DNA of 64,000 bases from an uncultured Candidatus Poseidoniales archaeon (GTDB lineage Archaea > Thermoplasmatota > Poseidoniia > Poseidoniales > Poseidoniaceae). The notes beneath the pieces are model-generated. The model had not been told where the DNA came from. It did no database searches and worked only from the letters and a program-made list of their open reading frames with translations. The translations under genes and the position numbers were made by a program. Positions 23,934 through 57,170 of the stretch are shown in pieces. How positions within the stretch are numbered: the stretch's first letter is position 1; every line of letters begins with the position of its first letter. Location: assembly GCA_905181785.1 (NCBI GenBank), contig CAJIZC010000011.1:1-64000 (forward strand), read 5' to 3'.

Positions 23934-26213
23934 ATGACCTCCGAACATGTTCTCATTTGTGTTGCTTGGCCGTACGCAAACGGTCCACTTCACTTAGGCC
24001 ACGTTGCGGGTTGTTACCTCCCCCCTGATATCCAAGCTCGATTTGAGCGAGCGCTTGGAAACCGCGTCTTGATGGTTTCCGGATCCGATGAGCATGGAAC
24101 ACCGATCACGGTTTCCGCAGAACAGAACGGAGTCAGCCCTCAGGATATTGTGGACACATACCACGCAATGAACAGCAAGGCTTTACTGAATTTGGGTTGT
24201 TCTTGGGAACCTCAAGTCGACCCACGGGGCGTGGAATACGGTGGGGCGCTGTTCAACAGAACAAGCGATCCACGGCATAAAAAAATGGTTCAAGATAATT
24301 TCACCTCACTCCTCAATGCAGGTTTATTTGAAGAAAAAACAATGAAGCAGTATTACGAAACAAACGATGATGGAACAGGGCGTTTCCTTCCCGATCGCTA
24401 CGTAGAAGGCGTATGCCCATCCTGTCAAGAAGATGGGGCGCGCGGCGACCAATGCGATGCATGTGGTGCAACCTACGAAGCGGAGGAGTTGCTCCAACCC
24501 CGGTCTAAAATGAACCCAACCGCATCGATTGAAGTGAGGGATACAGAACACCTTTTTTACCGCCTTGATGCCTTTCAGTCAGCCCTCGAGCACCATGCAT
24601 CAGGCCAACAAAAAGTCTGGAAATCAAACGTCAGAGCCATGACAAAACAATGGCTCGACATGGGCCTACGCCCTCGTGCAGTAACCCGCGACCTTTCTTG
24701 GGGAATCCCTCTGCCTCTCGAGGGCGAGGAATGGAATGGAAAATGCGTCTATGTTTGGTTTGAAGCCGTTCAAGGCTATTCCACCTGCGCACGCATCTGG
24801 GCAGATACAATCGCGCATGAAGCAGGCCATCCCAAGGGAACGGATGCATGGATGGATTGGTGGAACATAGCAGAGAACGGAGATGTCCCGCGCCACCTCT
24901 ATTTCTTGGGCAAGGACAACATACCCTTCCACACCGTAATTTGGCCGGCCTTGATTTTAGGGCTGAACCATGCCAAGAAAGGGTTGACGATCGATGATGA
25001 AGTCGCCCTCCCAGCACCTGGAGAAATGGCGTTGGAAACCAACGTTCCCGCTATGGAATACTTGATGCTCGCTGGCGGTCAATTTTCCAAATCTCGCAAG
25101 CATGCCGTTTGGCTTCCATCATTCCTAGAAAGGTTCGACCCCGATACATTGCGGTATTACTTGAGCATTAACATGCCCGAGAACCACGACACAGACTTCA
25201 ATTGGCCTGACTTTGTGGAGAAAATAAACACCGAACTCATCGCAGCGTACGGCAATTTCGTCCACCGAGTGTTGACCCTCGGCCACCGATTACCATCGGG
25301 TGAAAAAGGACCACTCGAATCCGTTGAAGAGCCGGAACTCACCATGGCTCACCGCGCGAAACTCGAAGAATTGCATGCCTCCATCACAGAATCGCTGCAA
25401 AGGCACCGCTACAAAGAAGCCTTGAGAACGGTGATGAATGCATCTCAATACGGGAACCAGATGCTTCAAGCCGCAACACCATGGAAGTACCTCAAAGACG
25501 AGACCCCTTCACCCGAACGCAAACAATCACTTTCCGATTTGGCCTTTGGCTGGAGAATTGCGAGGTTCTTAGCCATCACCACTCAACCGTTCATGCCGTT
25601 CAGCGCTGCACGCCTCTGGGCCAGCTTAGGCTTGAGTGGGGCAGTAAGTGAAACTCAGTGGGAAGAAGCGGTCAACTGGGACGCTCCGATGGAATGGAAT
25701 CCGGAGGACCCTCAACCCTTGTTTAAGCGTCTTGAACTTGAGGAAATTTTAGCCTCAGAACAATCCCTAATCGATCCAGATGAAGCATCGGCGGCAGACC
25801 CAGGTCATAGCGTCAAAGGAAGCAAAAAAAGAAACAAACCGTCCAAGGAGGAAAAGAAAGTGACAGAAGCACCAGAAGGAACAACATACCTTAATTTTGA
25901 TACATTCATGGAAGTCGATTTACGAGTCGGTAAAATCATAACCGTTGATGATCATCCGAATGCAGACCGATTGTATGTCGTAACAATTGACGACGGCACT
26001 GAAGAGCCCCGCACCATTTGCGCTGGCTTGAAGGCGTATTATTCTCCAGAAGAGATGGTTGGGAAAACGGTGGTCTTTGTGGCAAATTTGAAACCGCGAC
26101 CGCTTCGTGGTGTTGTCTCACAGGGCATGATGCTCGCTGCAGATGATGGCAATGACAACGTCAAATTAATCACCATTGATGGTGAAATCTCTCCTGGTTC
26201 ACAGGTACGTTGA
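23934..26213 (+). CDS. metG: Methionyl-tRNA synthetase with C-terminal tRNA-binding domain
   Basis: A 759-aa class I synthetase. The HIGH-type motif is PLHLGH near the N-terminus. A zinc knuckle lies at CPSCQEDGARGDQCDACG, and the KMSKS-type loop appears as the variant FSKSR. A Lys/Glu-rich linker leads to an EMAPII/Arc1p-like OB-fold at about residues 650-759 (VDLRVGKI; NLKPRPLRGVVSQGM). Some archaea encode the OB domain separately; here it is fused. It charges initiator and elongator tRNA-Met. Its stop abuts the convergent cyclodeaminase gene. Confidence 0.96.
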   Translation: MTSEHVLICVAWPYANGPLHLGHVAGCYLPPDIQARFERALGNRVLMVSGSDEHGTPITVSAEQNGVSPQDIVDTYHAMNSKALLNLGCSWEPQVDPRGVEYGGALFNRTSDPRHKKMVQDNFTSLLNAGLFEEKTMKQYYETNDDGTGRFLPDRYVEGVCPSCQEDGARGDQCDACGATYEAEELLQPRSKMNPTASIEVRDTEHLFYRLDAFQSALEHHASGQQKVWKSNVRAMTKQWLDMGLRPRAVTRDLSWGIPLPLEGEEWNGKCVYVWFEAVQGYSTCARIWADTIAHEAGHPKGTDAWMDWWNIAENGDVPRHLYFLGKDNIPFHTVIWPALILGLNHAKKGLTIDDEVALPAPGEMALETNVPAMEYLMLAGGQFSKSRKHAVWLPSFLERFDPDTLRYYLSINMPENHDTDFNWPDFVEKINTELIAAYGNFVHRVLTLGHRLPSGEKGPLESVEEPELTMAHRAKLEELHASITESLQRHRYKEALRTVMNASQYGNQMLQAATPWKYLKDETPSPERKQSLSDLAFGWRIARFLAITTQPFMPFSAARLWASLGLSGAVSETQWEEAVNWDAPMEWNPEDPQPLFKRLELEEILASEQSLIDPDEASAADPGHSVKGSKKRNKPSKEEKKVTEAPEGTTYLNFDTFMEVDLRVGKIITVDDHPNADRLYVVTIDDGTEEPRTICAGLKAYYSPEEMVGKTVVFVANLKPRPLRGVVSQGMMLAADDGNDNVKLITIDGEISPGSQVR

Positions 26214-49714: not shown

Positions 49715-50927
49715 ATTGACAACCTATCGCATCAAGGCAATTGCGAAGAAGGAGCTGGTGGAATTTGTTCGCGATTGGCGGACCATCATGGCCATCATCG
49801 TCATTCCTTTGCTGATGTTCCCATTGCTGTTCATTCTCTTTCCTGTGCTTTTGGAATCTGAAGCTGCGGAATTAGACGCTCTTGAGTTAACGGTCATTGT
49901 CCAAACCGATTTGATGGAACCAAGCCTTGAACAAGCGATCCACAATGTAAGCATACAGATTGTCTACGAAGAATTACCAAACCTGACCGTGCTCTCAGAA
50001 CCAGGTGAAGATTTAGACCGCGTTCGAAACTTGTCTGTTGACGCAGTGCTAAGGTTTGAACAAGATAATTCAACATGGAACTATGCCATTTTGCATCTTT
50101 CGACGTCAGAGCGTTCCAACGAAGCTTGGAACAGGTTGCTCGATGCCCTAAGCACTTGGGAATCCGAAGAAGTCGAACGAAGGATTGTCGATTCAGGCCT
50201 TGATGTCAACACAACCCTTGATCCATTGCGTTGGGATGGTGACGTAAGCCAAAGCGATGTGGCAACCAGTGGAGAACAAGCAGGCATGCTTTTGTCCCTG
50301 TTCATTCCGTTGGTTCTTGCCATTTGGACCTATTCCAGTGCACTGCAACCATCCATTGACATGACCGCTGGTGAGCGGGAGAGAGGTACGCTGGAAGCCC
50401 TCCTGTGCCTGCCTTGCACAAGGATGGAATTGCTGCTCGGGAAATGGGTCGCGGTCGCCACAATTACCGGTGTAGGCGTGGTCTTGCAAATCTGTGGGCT
50501 CTTGTTTGCCATTGGCTATCTTGCGTCGTCCAGCGTGATTGGCTTGCCCGAACTCTCTGTTTTGACCGTTGCATTAATTGTGGCAGCGATTTTGTTGTTT
50601 GCAATCATGGTGGTAGCCATAGAACTGGCCTTAGCCATGCGCTCTCACAGCGTCAAAGAGGCAGGATCAATATTGGCACCAATGCTGTTGCTGATTGTCT
50701 TCCCAGCGTTGTTCACACAGGTCATTAACCTCGACGGCATTGAATCGTTTTGGTTCGCTATACCAGTCGTTAACATCCTGTTGGCACTTCGCGAACTGCT
50801 GATGAACAGAGTCATCGCAGAACACATCCTCATTTGGGCAGGCACAAGCATCGTCTATGCAGCATTAGCAGCCTACTATGCAAGCAGGCAGTTCAACCGA
50901 GAAGACATTGTGACAAGTCTTTCTTAA
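49707..50927 (+). CDS. ABC-2 type permease (NatB-like)
   Basis: A 406-aa protein from the ATG at 49707 (GAGGTGA 7 bp before; a second ATG at 49701 is too close). One N-terminal TM segment is followed by a roughly 170-residue extracytoplasmic domain and five or six C-terminal TM segments. GERERGTLEALLCLPCTRMELLLGKW is the cytoplasmic coupling motif of the NatB/ABC-2 family. It partners the ATPase encoded upstream. Substrate unknown; NatAB exports Na+ in Bacillus, but relatives differ. Confidence 0.88.
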   Translation: MSELTTYRIKAIAKKELVEFVRDWRTIMAIIVIPLLMFPLLFILFPVLLESEAAELDALELTVIVQTDLMEPSLEQAIHNVSIQIVYEELPNLTVLSEPGEDLDRVRNLSVDAVLRFEQDNSTWNYAILHLSTSERSNEAWNRLLDALSTWESEEVERRIVDSGLDVNTTLDPLRWDGDVSQSDVATSGEQAGMLLSLFIPLVLAIWTYSSALQPSIDMTAGERERGTLEALLCLPCTRMELLLGKWVAVATITGVGVVLQICGLLFAIGYLASSSVIGLPELSVLTVALIVAAILLFAIMVVAIELALAMRSHSVKEAGSILAPMLLLIVFPALFTQVINLDGIESFWFAIPVVNILLALRELLMNRVIAEHILIWAGTSIVYAALAAYYASRQFNREDIVTSLS

Positions 50928-52430
50928 TCAAGCAGAGAACGCTACAAAGGAATCCCTTACCACATCGATGATGAGGTCGATTTCTTCTGAAGTGATGGAA
51001 AAGTGCGGGGTGAACCTTAGCGCATTGCTTCCACCATGAATGACGCCTAATCCGTGACGACGGCACCATGGTTCAACGGCGTCAAATCCAACGACTGGAA
51101 ATTGTTCCGGCACGAGTTCAGCACTGAGGAGAAGCCCTGTTCCTTGCACTTTCGTAATGATGCCTGGCATTTCTTCGCCCAGTGCAATGAGTTTCTCGAC
51201 AAATTCGTCACCACGATCTTTGATGTTGGCTCGCAGTTCGGGAGTCATGCTATCAAGCACAGCGCAAGCCGTTTCGAGCGCTCTTGGATTTGTTGTCATC
51301 GTGTTGCCATAGATTCCGACCACGTAGTTGTCAGCAGCCCGTTCATTCATTCCAAGAACGGAGAGTGGATACTGTCCTGCGTTCAGTGCCTTGGACCATG
51401 TTTCGAGGTCAGGGACCTCTGCATCTTGGAACCCGTCATAATCAATAATGGACAAGCATCCTTGGCCACGGATCCCTGCTTGGATGGAATCGACCAACAG
51501 CATTGAACCGTGTTCAAGGGTGAGACGACGAGCAGCATCGTAAAATTCACGGTCAACGCATGCTCCGGGATTGCCTTCGCCCTGAACCGGCTCAATGGCC
51601 ATCAATTCAATGAACCAATTTTCATCATCTGCGCGCTGAAACATTGCCTCGAGAGATGCAATATCATTTGCGGGAACAAGAAGCAAATTATCTCGGTCCC
51701 TGAAAGTTGCTAGGTTTTTGTCGTATGAACCCTTACACGAATGGGATATTTGGGCAGGTCGGTCTGTGCGACCGTGGAAGGCTTTTTCGATGGCAAGAAG
51801 TTTGATTTCTTTTCCTTCGTGCTTCCCACCAGGCCCTGTGTGGGTGCGTGCATTGACATCTGCAATTCGAAGGCTGACCGTTACGGATTCTGAACCGCTG
51901 TTCATGCAAATAAATTTGGTAAAGGGGCAAAAACCACGCGTGTGGCCAAGTTCTCGCTCGAGACGTTCAGCAAGGCGCTTTTGACTGAAGGAAGGCGTCA
52001 TAACATTGGCCATGACCCAATTTCCAGACATGGCTTCGATGACGGCTTCAGGGCCATGCCCTGCGCCAAGCATGCCGTAGCCGCCGTTGTCGTGCAGTAC
52101 AGCACCGTAAGCGGTGACAATCCACGGTCCTCGTCCTGCAAGGGCAATGTATGGATTCACAGTAGCAGGCGCGTAGAAATTTACGTAATCATGTTGGAGA
52201 ACCTTGACAAGTTCTGCCTCTGTGTGTTGAAGGGTTTCGAGGCCAAACTCAGATACAACCTCGTCAAACCGTGTTGTCGCTTCGGCGATGGCTTGAGTGA
52301 GCTTTGGATCAAGTTCACAAAAGCGTGCAATGACCTCATCAGACAGCCCTTTTGTGTCCATTTCCCCCGTATTCAAACGGAGGTTTTGCAGGTGCTCAAG
52401 TGCTTCATGAGGTTGCAACTTTGCTGTCAT
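50928..52430 (-). CDS. Class III PLP-dependent aminotransferase
   Basis: From the ATG at 52430 the protein is 500 aa. The fold-type I core is intact: GYGMLGAGHGPEAVIEAM, NSGSESVTVSLRIAD, FHGRTDRPAQ, IEPVQGEGNPGACV, LLVDSIQAGIRGQG and the PLP lysine in ETWSKALNAGQYPLSVLG. The family includes ornithine, lysine, GABA and diaminobutyrate aminotransferases, and the substrate cannot be assigned from these motifs. The open frame runs 76 codons further upstream (to 52658), but that part overlaps the promoter of the divergent RHH gene and is not family-like. Confidence 0.87.
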   Translation of the reverse strand: MTAKLQPHEALEHLQNLRLNTGEMDTKGLSDEVIARFCELDPKLTQAIAEATTRFDEVVSEFGLETLQHTEAELVKVLQHDYVNFYAPATVNPYIALAGRGPWIVTAYGAVLHDNGGYGMLGAGHGPEAVIEAMSGNWVMANVMTPSFSQKRLAERLERELGHTRGFCPFTKFICMNSGSESVTVSLRIADVNARTHTGPGGKHEGKEIKLLAIEKAFHGRTDRPAQISHSCKGSYDKNLATFRDRDNLLLVPANDIASLEAMFQRADDENWFIELMAIEPVQGEGNPGACVDREFYDAARRLTLEHGSMLLVDSIQAGIRGQGCLSIIDYDGFQDAEVPDLETWSKALNAGQYPLSVLGMNERAADNYVVGIYGNTMTTNPRALETACAVLDSMTPELRANIKDRGDEFVEKLIALGEEMPGIITKVQGTGLLLSAELVPEQFPVVGFDAVEPWCRRHGLGVIHGGSNALRFTPHFSITSEEIDLIIDVVRDSFVAFSA

Positions 52431-52530
52431 CAAGGTGATGTCCCATACGGGATGACTTGAACATTCGCTTGTCCGGAGATGGGAAGGGGCTATCTTCAAA
52501 TCAAGAATGACTCTTCCATTCAAGCAGGAA

Positions 52531-52563
52531 TAATACTCAGGTAATACTAGGGTAATACTTAAA
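52531..52563 (+). promoter_or_regulatory. Triple TAATACT direct repeat (operator) with overlapping TATA-like box
   Basis: TAATACT occurs at 52531, 52542 and 52553, an exact 11-bp period, so all three face the same side of the helix. TTAAA at 52559-52563 overlaps the last copy and sits about 26 bp before the ATG at 52587. The next gene encodes a ribbon-helix-helix protein, a class that binds short tandem sites and usually its own promoter. The repeats may also affect the divergent aminotransferase gene. Confidence 0.65.
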
Positions 52564-52586
52564 CAGTGGTCATTCAACCCCAGAAC

Positions 52587-52757
52587 ATGCCCAAAATATC
52601 TCTGGACATGCCAGCCGAGTTGGTTGAAGATTTGCGAAAGCATGTTGGCGATGATCACAAGTTCGTGAGCCTAGCTGATGCCGTTCGCACAGCTTGCCGG
52701 AAACTCCTCGACCAGTTGGATGAGATTGATGCACGACACGGGCGTCAGGTGGAATGA
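52587..52757 (+). CDS. Ribbon-helix-helix (CopG/MetJ-type) regulator
   Basis: A 56-aa protein from the ATG at 52587, with GTG at 52566 as an alternative. The strand-helix-helix layout is clear: KISLDMP beta strand, AELVEDLRKHVG helix 1, SLADAVRTACRKLLDQLDEID helix 2. Such proteins form dimers that insert a two-stranded beta ribbon into the DNA major groove at direct repeats. It is the first gene of a tight run with folE, queE, queC-msrB and queD (3-bp gap to folE), so it probably controls that operon. Confidence 0.8.
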   Translation: MPKISLDMPAELVEDLRKHVGDDHKFVSLADAVRTACRKLLDQLDEIDARHGRQVE

Positions 52758-52760
52758 AAC

Positions 52761-53330
52761 ATGGTAACACGAACAGAAGCAGAACAAGCCGTATTGACCC
52801 TCTTGGGTTACTTGGAAGACGATCCACAACGCGAAGGGTTGGCTAAGACCCCCCAGCGTGTAATCGATTCATGGGACGAATTGTTTGCAGGATACAATCT
52901 AAAGGCTGCTGATCTTCTTGATTCAACATTTAACGGCGAGGGTTATGACGGAATTGTGCTGTTGCGCGACATAGAATTCCATTCAACCTGCGAGCATCAT
53001 CTTCAACCGTTTAATGGGCGCGCCCATATTGCATACATTCCGGTCGAACGGATTGTTGGCATCAGCAAATTAGCCCGCATCATTGATTTGCACGCTCGCC
53101 GCCTTCAAAACCAGGAACGAATCACAAAAGGCATTGCTGATGATCTGGAGAAGCATTTGGCCCCGCTTGGTGCCGCCGTCATCATCGAAGCATCTCATGG
53201 CTGCATGCGCTGCCGCGGTGTGAAAAAGCAAAATTCAGTGATGACAACCTCCGCCATGCGAGGCGTGTTCTTCGAACGACCAGAAGCACGTCAAGAGCTC
53301 ATGCAATTGATTCAAGCCCGCCCCTTGTGA
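52761..53330 (+). CDS. folE: GTP cyclohydrolase I, bacterial/eukaryotic type FolE
   Basis: A 189-aa FolE. Zinc ligands C77, H80 and C148 are in CEHHLQPF and HGCMRC, and the catalytic region FNGRAHIAYIPVERIVGISKLARI is conserved. It converts GTP to dihydroneopterin triphosphate, substrate for QueD. Most archaea use the FolE2-like MptA or ArfA instead, so a bacterial-type FolE here suggests horizontal acquisition. It may also feed pterin cofactor synthesis, but its place between the RHH gene and queE ties it to 7-deazaguanine synthesis. Confidence 0.95.
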   Translation: MVTRTEAEQAVLTLLGYLEDDPQREGLAKTPQRVIDSWDELFAGYNLKAADLLDSTFNGEGYDGIVLLRDIEFHSTCEHHLQPFNGRAHIAYIPVERIVGISKLARIIDLHARRLQNQERITKGIADDLEKHLAPLGAAVIIEASHGCMRCRGVKKQNSVMTTSAMRGVFFERPEARQELMQLIQARPL

Positions 53331-53339
53331 AGTGAGTCA

Positions 53340-54002
53340 ATGAGCGATGAAGAGTCCTGCCACATCGCTGGGGATGCGCCAGTGGACAATCCAACAGACC
53401 TGGCAATGGTCTATCCGATTGTCGAGATTTTTCATTCGGTACAAGGAGAAGGGTTTCACGCCGGTATACCGCACGTATTCGTTCGATTGGGAACATGCAA
53501 TTTGCGTTGCGAGTGGTGCGATACGGACTTTATGACCTTCAAAAACATGAATGCAATTGACATTCTTGCCGAAATTATGGCGTTTGATTGCAAGCGAATC
53601 ATCTTCACCGGAGGGGAGCCGATGCTTCACGATCTGTGGCCCCTTCACCGGCTGTTGAAAGCACGCGGTTACGTTTTATCAGTGGAAACGAACGGAACCA
53701 TTGAAATCCCTGAGGGATTGATTGATTGGATTTGCGTTTCCCCAAAAGACCAGATGTACCCAGATGTCAAAATACGCCAGCGAACGGGGGACGAACTCAA
53801 ATGCGTCTATGTCGGCCAAGACCTAGAAATATACAGCGGTCTGCAACAAGGGTTCAAACATCATTTCCTTCAACCGTGCTACATGGACACCGAGAGTGTG
53901 GAATGGAACGGTAAGAACTTCGCCGAAACCGAAGCGGTCGTCAAAACGAACGCTCCGTGGCGTTTAAGTCTACAAACACACAAATGGATGGGTGTGGATT
54001 AA
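53340..54002 (+). CDS. queE: 7-carboxy-7-deazaguanine synthase QueE (radical SAM)
   Basis: A 220-aa short radical SAM enzyme. The cluster cysteines are C53, C57 and C60 in GTCNLRCEWCD, a CxxxCxxC spacing, and FTGGEPMLH follows as the SAM GGE motif. EIFHSVQGEGFHAG at the N-terminus is typical of QueE. It rearranges 6-carboxy-tetrahydropterin to CDG. The stop overlaps the ATG of the queC-msrB gene (positions 54000-54004). Confidence 0.95.
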   Translation: MSDEESCHIAGDAPVDNPTDLAMVYPIVEIFHSVQGEGFHAGIPHVFVRLGTCNLRCEWCDTDFMTFKNMNAIDILAEIMAFDCKRIIFTGGEPMLHDLWPLHRLLKARGYVLSVETNGTIEIPEGLIDWICVSPKDQMYPDVKIRQRTGDELKCVYVGQDLEIYSGLQQGFKHHFLQPCYMDTESVEWNGKNFAETEAVVKTNAPWRLSLQTHKWMGVD

Positions 54003-55156
54003 TGTCAAAGCGCTCTGTCATGGCCCTTTCTGGAGGCATGGATTCTACGGCGTTGCTGGTTCGCCTTTTGGCTGATGGCTCAAAGGTCAGTTGTATCTCA
54101 TACAGATACGGTCAAAAGCACAGCGTCGAGCTCCAAAGGGCTCAACAAAACATCGAATATCTACGTTCTAAAGGAGCCAGCGTAGATCATACTGTAGTGG
54201 ATTTAACCGGTGCAATGAGCCTGTTTGATTCCGCTTTGCTTGATGGAGGAGCGGAAATCCCTGAAGGCCACTATGAAGAAGAGCAAATGAAGGCCACGGT
54301 TGTACCAAATCGAAACGCTATTTTTGCATCAATTCTCTATGGTCACGCCCTTTCGATTTCCTCAAGGGAATCCACTGACGTTTCGATTGCACTGGGTGTT
54401 CATTCGGGTGACCATGAAATATACCCCGATTGTCGTCCGGAATTTTACACTGCATTGGAACACGCCTTTGCAATTGGTAACTGGGACAGCGAACGGGTGA
54501 GGTTTGAACTTCCTTATTTGAACGGAAATAAGGTGACCATCTTGAAAGATGCACTAAGGGCTTGCGATCTGCTTGAACTGAATTTTGACAAGGTGTTTGA
54601 GAACACAATCACCTCCTACAATCCAGATGAAAACGGCCGGAGTTCGGGGCGAAGCGGCTCAGATGTTGAACGCATATTAGCCTTCAATGCGCTGGATTTA
54701 GTTGATCCTATCGAATATGTTGAACCTTGGGGGGTCGTTCTGAAAGCAGCCCTAGAAACTGAGCGGAAGCACAAAGATGCTTACTACAAGGAAAAATTAT
54801 CAGAGTTGCAATACCATGTCACGCGCAACAGCGGGACTGAGCAAGCCTTCACGGGAATCTATTGGGACGAGAAACGCAAGGGCACATACACATGCGTCTG
54901 CTGTGGCCATGTTCTCTTCACATCGGCTATGAAGTTTGATTCAGGCTGTGGCTGGCCCTCATTCCACAGCGAGCACGGAAGAGCTGGTATCGTTCAAATT
55001 GAGGATCGTACTTTTGGCATGCTCCGGGTTGAAGTCCGCTGCACCAAATGTGATGCTCACCTCGGGCACATCTTTGAAGATGGGCCACGAAAGCATGGAG
55101 GCAACAGATATTGCATCAATTCAGCATCATTGAACTTCGAGGAGATGGAAGAATGA
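54002..55156 (+). CDS. queC: QueC-like domain fused to methionine sulfoxide reductase B
   Basis: A 384-aa two-domain protein. Residues 1 to about 240 are QueC-like: the PP-loop SGGMDS is at 10-15, VPNRNAIF and HSGDHEIYPDCRPEF follow. The usual four zinc cysteines near the C-terminus of QueC are replaced by S205, S215, S218 and D221, although the surrounding NPDENGR sequence is kept. Residues about 268-384 are a full MsrB: zinc cysteines C298, C301, C347 and C350, resolving C316 in GCGWPSF, and catalytic C371 in NRYCINSASL. QueC makes preQ0 from CDG with ATP and ammonia. There is no stop or frameshift between the domains. It lies between queE and queD with overlaps on both sides. Confidence 0.93.
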   Translation: MSKRSVMALSGGMDSTALLVRLLADGSKVSCISYRYGQKHSVELQRAQQNIEYLRSKGASVDHTVVDLTGAMSLFDSALLDGGAEIPEGHYEEEQMKATVVPNRNAIFASILYGHALSISSRESTDVSIALGVHSGDHEIYPDCRPEFYTALEHAFAIGNWDSERVRFELPYLNGNKVTILKDALRACDLLELNFDKVFENTITSYNPDENGRSSGRSGSDVERILAFNALDLVDPIEYVEPWGVVLKAALETERKHKDAYYKEKLSELQYHVTRNSGTEQAFTGIYWDEKRKGTYTCVCCGHVLFTSAMKFDSGCGWPSFHSEHGRAGIVQIEDRTFGMLRVEVRCTKCDAHLGHIFEDGPRKHGGNRYCINSASLNFEEMEE

Positions 55157-55602
55157 CAACAAGAATCCGCAGATACGTCGAAACTGATACCGGCCATCGA
55201 GTCCCAAACCACAAGAGCAAGTGCCGACACATGCATGGCCATCGATACAGATTTGAAGCCGAAATTGAAGGTGACGTGGTTCAAGAAAGCGGTGCTTCAG
55301 ATGAAGGCATGGTAATGGATTTCTCTGATGTAAGTGAAATCTTGATGGTTCATGTCCACGACGTCATCGATCACGCTTTCGTTGTCTATGAACACGATGA
55401 GCAGGCACTTGCAGCACTTGCATGCATGGAAGATGGGCACCGAACCCTGGTTGTTTCGTTCATACCAACAGCAGAGAATCTTGCCAAGTGGGCTTTTGAC
55501 CAGGTGCATCCTCACATTGTTTCTGCGTATGGCAACCGATTGAAATTGGTCGCTATGCACGTGAGAGAAACACCGAAGAGCATTGCTACCTGGTATGCGT
55601 GA
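55153..55602 (+). CDS. queD: 6-carboxy-tetrahydropterin synthase QueD (PTPS family)
   Basis: A 149-aa protein from the ATG at 55153, which overlaps the queC-msrB stop (ATGA). Zinc ligands H15, H28 and H30 and the nucleophilic C24 sit in GHRV and CRHMHGH. FSDVSEILMVHVHDVIDHAFV provides the conserved Asp/His, and TAENLAKWAF follows. QueD turns dihydroneopterin triphosphate into 6-carboxy-tetrahydropterin for QueE. It is the last gene of the folE-queE-queC-queD operon and is convergent with trmJ. Confidence 0.94.
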   Translation: MTTRIRRYVETDTGHRVPNHKSKCRHMHGHRYRFEAEIEGDVVQESGASDEGMVMDFSDVSEILMVHVHDVIDHAFVVYEHDEQALAALACMEDGHRTLVVSFIPTAENLAKWAFDQVHPHIVSAYGNRLKLVAMHVRETPKSIATWYA

Positions 55603-55608
55603 GTGGTC

Positions 55609-56445
55609 TCATTCCTCTTCGGGACTGATTTTCCGACGGCGTTGGCTCCGCCAAGTTTCGTTGCCTTCTACGAATTGAATGGCAGTTGTAGCATCAAGTA
55701 AGCCGCCAATCATTCGAGTGGCCTCCCCTTGAGTTGGCATTGAACGCATGATTGAACGCATCAGCGATTGTTGGAAACTTTGCCTTCGTTCATCGTTTCC
55801 CGGTAACGCTCCTGCGAGTTCCTTTACGGTTTGCAACAACACCTGTTTCAGTTCCGGGTGAAGCGCACGTTCGAGGGGAACAACATCTGGCATTCCCGCT
55901 TCCTTTCCTTGTGCATTGATCACACGGTAGCGATGCAGTTCGTATACGCAGGCATTTACGGCGTGTGAAAGGTTAGCAATCGGGTAACCTTCCCATGTCG
56001 GTAGGGTCACTAAATAATCGCATTTGGCCAAGTCTTCAGTTGACATTCCCTTTCCTTCTTCACCAAAAACGAGGCAGACATGCCCGTTGAAATCATTGAC
56101 GCGCTCTGCCAACTCCCAAGGGTAAACGAAGTGACGAAAATTAGTTTTGGCTCCAATTTCTCTTTTTCCAGAGGTCCCAATCACCATCGAAGCATCTGCA
56201 GTCGCCTCTCCTAGGGTGGCGTAAGTTGTGCATTGGTCGAGCACTCTACCGGCATGTTTGGCCCGATTCCTTGCTTCAATGTCATCTGCCTGACAGTTTG
56301 GAGCCACAAGGCGCAAGTTGACAAAACCATAGTTGAGCATCGAACGGCACACGGCCCCGAGGTTGCCCGGATGGGAAACGCCAATCAGCACGATCGATAG
56401 GCTGTAGGGCGAGGTTGGCAAGGGGAGTGTTGCTCTGTCACCCAT
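55609..56445 (-). CDS. trmJ: SpoU/TrmJ-type tRNA 2'-O-methyltransferase
   Basis: A 278-aa SPOUT methyltransferase. Motif 1 is VSHPGNLGAVCRSMLNYGF, motif 2 LVFGEEGKGMS and motif 3 LPTWEGYPIANLSHAVNACVYEL, arranged as in TrmJ, which methylates the ribose of residue 32 in tRNA. A C-terminal helical extension of about 100 residues is also TrmJ-like. It is the distal gene of the ribosomal-protein cluster on this strand. The exact target is by family. Confidence 0.88.
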   Translation of the reverse strand: MGDRATLPLPTSPYSLSIVLIGVSHPGNLGAVCRSMLNYGFVNLRLVAPNCQADDIEARNRAKHAGRVLDQCTTYATLGEATADASMVIGTSGKREIGAKTNFRHFVYPWELAERVNDFNGHVCLVFGEEGKGMSTEDLAKCDYLVTLPTWEGYPIANLSHAVNACVYELHRYRVINAQGKEAGMPDVVPLERALHPELKQVLLQTVKELAGALPGNDERRQSFQQSLMRSIMRSMPTQGEATRMIGGLLDATTAIQFVEGNETWRSQRRRKISPEEE

Positions 56446-56451
56446 TCATTC

Positions 56452-56682
56452 TCACTCCTCTTCGAGGACGGACCCGATATCGAAGGCAGCAATCCATCTT
56501 GGATCGCATGCTTGGTAGAGAAAGAAGAGGAACCCAGGTCCCTCTTCCCTGTCTTCCATGACAATTGAACGGCGACGGACACCATGCTTGTTGCGAAGAT
56601 GAAGGATGAGTCCTTCGAGGACAGCCTTGCGGTCGTGGTGTATCGAAACGGGAGTGCGGTCCCAGTTGACCCGCAATGCCAC
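56452..56682 (-). CDS. Small conserved-looking protein between S17e and trmJ
   Basis: A 76-aa ORF with a GTG start that fits tightly between rps17e (14 bp) and trmJ (6 bp). The sequence is mixed alpha/beta with a basic VRRRSIVMEDREEG segment and an acidic end. No family recognised. The tight spacing is the main evidence that it is a gene. Confidence 0.5.
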   Translation of the reverse strand: MALRVNWDRTPVSIHHDRKAVLEGLILHLRNKHGVRRRSIVMEDREEGPGFLFFLYQACDPRWIAAFDIGSVLEEE

Positions 56683-56696
56683 GTCAAAGCACCTGC

Positions 56697-56888
56697 TCAG
56701 TCGACTCGGCGTTGTCGGTATGTGGTCACGTAGCCAGCGATCCAGTTGCGGAGTTTCTTAGACTCAACATCTGTGAGTTGTTGGACCATTTTCTTGTTGT
56801 GGTCGAAGTCGTCGGTGAATTTCTCCCCATGATCTTCAACAAGATGGATGGCTCGAATTTTGATAAAACTTGGTCGAATATTTCCCAT
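56697..56888 (-). CDS. rps17e: Ribosomal protein S17e
   Basis: A 63-aa protein matching archaeal S17e along its length: [18 protein letters not shown], then [16 protein letters not shown] and [19 protein letters not shown]. It is a small-subunit protein found only in archaea and eukaryotes. It follows rpl31e after 6 bp. Confidence 0.95.
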
Positions 56889-56894
56889 AATTAA

Positions 56895-57170
56895 TCACTC
56901 CGTGGATAGTTTGACTTCGATTGGAATATCAGGTTCATCGTGACGGGTCACGTGAAGCTTGATTTTGCGAGGTGGGTTTTCAATTCCACGAGCCCAGATG
57001 TGCTCGTTGACCGATGGGTCAATCCAGACTTCTTCGTCTTCTCGCACTTTGAGGTGCTGGATGACGTGTTCTCGGATGATTTGAATTGCACGTGGAGCGC
57101 GCTTGTATCGGGTGATGGCCCATGCCTTTCGGAGTGGGACAATTAGCTCTGATTCATTTGGTCGTACCAT
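56895..57170 (-). CDS. rpl31e: Ribosomal protein L31e
   Basis: A 91-aa large-subunit protein specific to archaea and eukaryotes. It begins ELIVPLRKAWAITRYKRAPRAIQIIREHV, with EVWIDPSVNEHIWARGIENPPRKIKL in the middle, the standard L31e pattern. It lies 11 bp after rpl39e, as in other archaea. Confidence 0.96.
   Translation of the reverse strand: MVRPNESELIVPLRKAWAITRYKRAPRAIQIIREHVIQHLKVREDEEVWIDPSVNEHIWARGIENPPRKIKLHVTRHDEPDIPIEVKLSTE

Follow-up and report, generated by a model that had tools for sequence, protein, structure and literature searches.

MetJ and Arc, the ribbon-helix-helix (RHH) repressors of bacteria and phage, bind as dimers to tandem palindromic boxes. MetJ is a case of biosynthetic autorepression, and the dimers of Arc are placed one turn apart. 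Short RHH regulators described in archaea include CdrS (NCBIfam NF058555), which regulates ftsZ2 in haloarchaea, and aCcr1 (NCBIfam NF053762), the cell-cycle repressor of Sulfolobales. The aCcr1 motif reportedly resembles AGTATTA, which is a lead only. In the bacterial queuosine pathway, the genes of 7-deazaguanine synthesis or transport are controlled by the preQ1 riboswitch. Archaeosine is a modified tRNA base that nearly all archaeal tRNAs carry in the D-loop. In Haloferax volcanii, queE (HVO_1717) and queC (HVO_1716) are both required for archaeosine (PMC3017900). The literature searched gives no account of how the archaeosine-precursor pathway is regulated. Full-text searches turned up no protein, RHH or other, that regulates archaeal que genes, and most subscription papers lie outside that coverage, so novelty is unproven.

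The locus compared here with these systems lies in a window of 64,000 nucleotides, the whole stretch of DNA analysed, from an uncultured Candidatus Poseidoniales archaeon (Table 1). We consider it probable that the 56-aa RHH protein encoded there is a dedicated transcriptional autorepressor of the preQ0/archaeosine-precursor pathway, acting via arrays of the motif AGTAWTACT. The continuation of the operon after RHH with folE, queE, queC-msrB and queD, proposed in an earlier note on this DNA, is borne out by Pfam and TIGR matches. A class-III aminotransferase gene, divergent and on the minus strand (50928 to about 52430), shares its intergenic region with the operator. An Rfam scan of 7 kb of the window (50000-57000) gave no match at E<=1, and hence no preQ1 riboswitch. 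The in-frame fusion of queC to msrB is also seen in other loci: in 49 of the 83 that have both genes they form a single open frame, and in the remainder they do not.

Table 1. Features of the operator and of the RHH-que operon in the window.
Feature	Position	Strand	Basis
Operator, three AGTAWTACT-type units, 11-bp period, last merging into TATA box	52529..52563	+	sequence, shuffles, CM R1, relatives
Operator unit 1, AATAATACT	52529..52537	.	sequence
Operator unit 2, GGTAATACT	52540..52548	.	sequence
Operator unit 3, GGTAATACT, overlaps BRE position	52551..52559	.	sequence and relatives' alignment
TATA-like box ACTTAAA, ~26 bp 5' of ATG	52557..52563	+	sequence and relatives
RHH (ribbon-helix-helix) regulator gene, 56 aa, ATG 52587	52587..52757	+	relatives' orthologues, sub-threshold CdrS match
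folE, GTP cyclohydrolase I	52761..53330	+	Pfam PF01227 E=2.9e-67
queE, 7-carboxy-7-deazaguanine synthase	53340..54002	+	Pfam Radical_SAM; TIGR04508 E=3e-39, below its cut-off
queC-msrB fusion, 7-cyano-7-deazaguanine (preQ0) synthase and methionine-R-sulfoxide reductase	54002..55156	+	PF06508 E=4.8e-39, PF01641 E=1.9e-48
queD, 6-carboxytetrahydropterin synthase family	55153..55602	+	PF01242; TIGR03367 E=6.8e-23, just below its cut-off

The repeat that drew attention to this region, three copies of TAATACT starting at 52531, 52542 and 52553, is exactly as had been claimed: the copies occupy 52531-52537, 52542-52548 and 52553-52559, with a period of exactly 11 bp. Nowhere else in the window does this threefold arrangement recur, and 100 dinucleotide shuffles did not produce it once, even when three mismatches were tolerated. 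The TTAAA described as abutting the third copy, about 26 bp before the RHH start codon, was likewise found, at 52559-52563. The TATA-like box to which it belongs reads ACTTAAA in the window versus CTTATAT in most relatives, and its distance from the ATG suggests that the RHH-que transcript is leaderless. The proposed search for further copies in the organism's own genome (1.66 Mb, about 80% complete) returned only one other two-copy match within two mismatches, at 25153, and this match has two mismatches. The sequence-only model R1, which spans 36 positions, uses 56 promoters and was run on whole genomes, scores the window operator at E=2.9e-9 in 98 kb, the window sequence being one of the 56 on which it was trained.

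The elements were first taken for direct repeats. The 11-bp repetition stands and the direct orientation does not, as the unit is better described, on comparison with relatives, as AGTAWTACT, a 9-bp near-palindrome. The sequence AGTATTACT is the reverse complement of AGTAATACT, and TATTACT and TAATACT swap freely at the same positions among relatives, which leads to this definition of the unit. As the units are near-palindromic, the array consists of palindromic sites in a row, without the orientation of direct repeats. One symmetric RHH dimer could fit each unit, and dimers on adjacent 11-bp units would share one face of the helix.

Orthologues of the RHH gene are present in 161 of 195 relatives and in 21 of 22 genera. 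Among Poseidoniales relatives 130 RHH loci were read and 129 upstream regions analysed. A pair of AGTAWTACT units 11 bp apart (two or fewer mismatches) precedes 101 of the 129 RHH genes, against 0.3 expected from dinucleotide shuffles. The arrays consist of two to four units, one every 11 bp. The spacing spectrum of the 129 regions peaks at 11, 22 and 33; its minor peaks at 3, 14 and 25 are as expected from overlapping matches to a palindrome. The operator alignment extends over 44 bp, contains 35 bits, has its last unit fused to the TATA box and, in 108 of 129 cases, is separated from the start codon by 14-17 bp. Twelve of the 129 promoters score below 20 bits in a three-unit model; among these, the promoters of two genera keep, by eye, the 11-bp units in another register.

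Strong genome matches to R1 are RHH promoters, usually hit on both strands, as follows from the palindromic nature of the site. When 12 Poseidoniales genomes were searched to E=10, the RHH-que promoter was the top site in all 12, and a clear second site was found only in G147. This second operator (L264, G147:C13, ~754-782; E=3.6e-6) stands before a gene for a small protein of unknown function. The operator is thus practically the sole site in each Poseidoniales genome checked closely, and looks like part of a dedicated local circuit. The overlap of the third unit with the TATA box might be taken to mean that the repeats are merely a core promoter (BRE/TATA) or a chance run of low complexity. 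Such an explanation is scarcely credible for two to four units that keep an exact 11-bp period, extend upstream of the TATA box in Poseidoniales, are found on its downstream side in Altiarchaeota and haloarchaea, and form an array practically unique in each genome.

The gene order on the right of the operator is nearly constant. RHH is followed by folE in 130 of 130 loci and by queE in all but one, whose contig ends early. The left neighbor of RHH is the aminotransferase gene in 54 of these loci and something else in 76, and the operator stays with RHH-folE-que irrespective of it. In the window the operator falls within the intergenic region common to both directions, and it could be imagined that its target is the divergent class-III aminotransferase gene and not the que operon. 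This is most improbable, as the array is kept in genera that lack the aminotransferase beside RHH and always adjoins the RHH side. One locus with the Poseidoniales RHH-folE-que operon (L201) carries the label of a Rhodobiaceae bacterium MAG; its upstream region is identical to that of L153, and the contig is probably mis-binned.

Outside Poseidoniales, the Marine Group III operator is recognized by R1 at E=3.4e-9, although it was not in the training set. The order of genes after the site is RHH, a membrane-protein gene, folE, queE, queC and a queD-like gene. The membrane-protein gene that separates RHH from folE (L211, 4171-5010; L265) is possibly signal-peptidase-like. Altiarchaeota have the RHH gene in 13 of 29 genomes, mostly followed by queD, queC and queE; 9 of the 13 promoters contain AGTAWTACT units with the 11-bp period, against 1.2 expected, and these are located mostly between the TATA box and the ATG. 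A methyltransferase-like gene is found inside the que operon of two Altiarchaeota loci (L207, 2640-3296; L305). No RHH orthologue was detected at E<=1e-8 in the other Thermoplasmatota sampled, outside Poseidoniales and Marine Group III, and none in the viral contigs and phages searched.

In haloarchaea, the RHH gene is present in 143 of 146 genomes. Its usual neighbors are tatC and ftsJ; in a minority it lies beside que genes. Sites were found before many of the haloarchaeal RHH genes examined, between TATA and ATG. These operators are weaker, with an information content of 10.7 bits, and about one third of the RHH promoters examined score near background. The array is therefore kept across the order Poseidoniales and in Marine Group III, Altiarchaeota and haloarchaea, and the absence from orthologous loci that the earlier note had named as refuting was not observed. 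The pairing of the RHH gene with the site is, by these comparisons, a property of four archaeal groups and not special to the archaeon of the window.

The separation of the RHH and que genes in most haloarchaea makes it possible to look for the site in trans. For this, 33 haloarchaeal RHH promoters, and no que promoters, were used to train a 20-bp motif model. Thirty haloarchaeal queC loci were taken, and the queD promoter was captured in 24 of them. The model trained on RHH promoters finds a site in all 24 (shuffle p<=0.025), and in 22 this site is the best of the whole 3.6-kb locus. The density of sites is 4.31 per kb in que promoters versus 0.085 elsewhere. In a stricter, local-shuffle test, 24 of 24 que promoters and 9 of 22 AT-rich controls pass at p<0.05, and 20 of 24 versus 4 of 22 at p<0.01, the control being biased in both comparisons. 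The link of the regulator to 7-deazaguanine synthesis is thus supported in trans as well, because haloarchaeal que promoters carry the site though RHH is usually encoded elsewhere.

A further model, R2, was built from both RHH and que promoters and searched in 58 haloarchaeal genomes. By coordinates, all 24 of its matches at E<=0.005 fall on promoters of que or RHH genes; since some que promoters were in the training set of R2, its matches at que promoters are in part so by construction. Several of the weaker matches (E 0.01-0.7) lie away from RHH and que and were considered as further members of the regulon; those inspected, which precede genes for an inorganic pyrophosphatase, a PadR-like regulator and a small acidic protein and a gene without assignment, were set aside as probable chance. 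No tgtA or arcS promoter was recognized among the haloarchaeal R2 matches. A haloarchaeal search for QueE with an atypical QueE query (L339) returned nothing at E<=1e-20, a negative that carries no weight; a QueC-family query succeeded.

A queC match was found in 38 of 59 haloarchaeal genomes, versus the near-universal RHH gene, which implies another role for RHH in these organisms, or salvage. On haloarchaeal plasmids RHH adjoins queD-queE-queC in three of four cases (Halorubrum ezzemoulense, Haloplanus sp. HW8-1 and Halococcus dombrowskii). The queD-queE-queC-RHH cassette of the HW8-1 plasmid (L415, 1-6183) lies a few kb from a BREX ATP-binding gene, and could be cargo for 7-deazaguanine DNA modification or defence.

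The membership of the protein in the RHH superfamily is supported by matches to family models: among 20 aligned members, three match Pfam RHH_1 (best 1.9e-5) and all 20 give weak hits to the CdrS model (best 2.8e-7). Taken by itself, the window protein gives no Pfam hit at E<=0.01. Against the NCBIfam cut-off of 100 bits for CdrS, which neither reaches, the window protein scores 15.3 and a haloarchaeal orthologue 30.4. Two of the 20 aligned members match the aCcr1 model weakly; the haloarchaeal orthologue gives 16.0 bits, below the cut-off of 60, and the window protein gives no match to this model. The AlphaFold monomer has two helices (10-17 and 29-51), the strand is not formed, and a structure search with it gave no PDB match at E<=0.001. 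The 56-aa chain has no effector domain.

These similarities raise the question of whether the protein is a global cell-cycle regulator like CdrS or aCcr1, for which the que operon is an incidental neighbor or one of many targets. Its near-universal occurrence in haloarchaea and the weak matches to both models would agree with such a role. The orthologue scores, however, remain far under the CdrS cut-off, and the neighbors of the gene are folE/que in Poseidoniales and tatC/ftsJ or que in haloarchaea, not the ftsZ2 gene that CdrS directly precedes. One haloarchaeon with this RHH gene also has, next to ftsZ and a CdrL-like gene, another gene with a weaker RHH match, which is apparently CdrS. The operator is practically single-site in Poseidoniales, and strong haloarchaeal matches are RHH and que promoters only. 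A cell-cycle role is quite unlikely on these grounds. As the apparent CdrS is a separate gene, the protein is best classified, from its sequence, as a relative and paralogue of CdrS and not as CdrS itself.

Residues K3, S5 and D7 are invariant across 130 species; we place them on the strand with which RHH proteins generally touch DNA. Three Altiarchaeota carry R3. In two of them (L304, L305) the usual TATTACT units are replaced by TATGAT, and the third (L299) keeps GTATTACT, that is, TATTACT. The association of the K3->R change with altered sites is suggestive in this small sample. As the sites were identified from DNA conservation alone, it might be supposed that a different DNA-binding protein reads them and that RHH does something else. 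The two R3 proteins with altered sites speak against another reader, as does the joint travel of site and RHH gene through four archaeal groups in varied gene orders, unlinked from que in most haloarchaea. Altogether, another reader is very unlikely.

By combining these observations, it is possible to outline how an RHH autorepressor might work. The sites, their period and placement, their conservation and near-uniqueness, and their pairing with the RHH and que genes are all present in the sequences; binding by RHH, cooperativity and repression are what we infer from them. RHH dimers would bind to the AGTAWTACT near-palindromes, which follow one another at intervals of 11 bp, or one helical turn, in rows of two to four, and binding to adjacent units is probably cooperative. 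In Poseidoniales, with the last unit on the BRE/TATA, bound RHH would keep TBP and TFB off the promoter. In Altiarchaeota and haloarchaea, where the units are between TATA and ATG, RNA polymerase would be blocked instead. The RHH-folE-queE-queC/msrB-queD operon of the window would thus be self-limiting, and in most haloarchaea RHH would control its own promoter and also, in trans, a separate queD-queE-queC operon.

That the regulation is negative is likely from the position of the sites, which fall on the BRE/TATA box or on the start site. Activators in archaea usually occupy positions upstream of the BRE (PMC8406309), and CdrS, the closest named relative, which is described as an activator, has most of its sites 41-110 nt ahead of the start site (PMC8406309; PMC7439475). 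Activation by RHH from its sites, as by CdrS for ftsZ2, is therefore unlikely, since a protein bound on the BRE/TATA, or in the interval from TATA to ATG, would stand in the way of the basal machinery. The "transcriptional switch for 7-deazaguanine synthesis" that the earlier note had predicted is upheld as far as the wiring is concerned, by the conserved sites at RHH and que promoters, and the word switch applies to this wiring only.

It is also possible, though rather doubtful, that the RHH protein binds preQ0 or a pterin precursor directly via the conserved helix residues H19, G21, K25, D31 and R34, and is a metabolite sensor. If so, it would be the archaeal protein counterpart of the preQ1 riboswitch, and in haloarchaea without queC it would control salvage. 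The putative regulator is conserved, has a readable operator, and is present in haloarchaea, where gene deletion is routine, so that the question of regulation is directly testable. The shift of the operator from a position atop the TATA box to one downstream, together with the passage of the gene from cis to trans, would provide a clean case for the evolution of archaeal repressor circuits.

The comparison with known systems can now be completed. Like CdrS, its best named match, the RHH protein is a short archaeal protein of about 60 aa with a symmetric DNA motif; it scores far under the family cut-off, however, and its gene is away from ftsZ2, and CdrS is reported to be an activator whose targets are many. 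aCcr1 is likewise a short archaeal RHH protein and is described as a repressor, but its targets are division genes (PMC12284271, PMC7617429), whereas the predicted target here is the preQ0 pathway. The preQ1 riboswitch is an RNA element, in contrast to the protein-DNA switch proposed here. By analogy, the tandem palindromic boxes and presumed biosynthetic autorepression recall MetJ, and the one-turn spacing of dimers recalls Arc. The boxes of MetJ, however, are 8 bp apart and MetJ needs SAM, while the RHH protein lacks any further domain and has no known ligand. An RHH autorepressor on tandem sites is of a kind already known; its target, its breadth and its wiring to a single pathway appear to be new.
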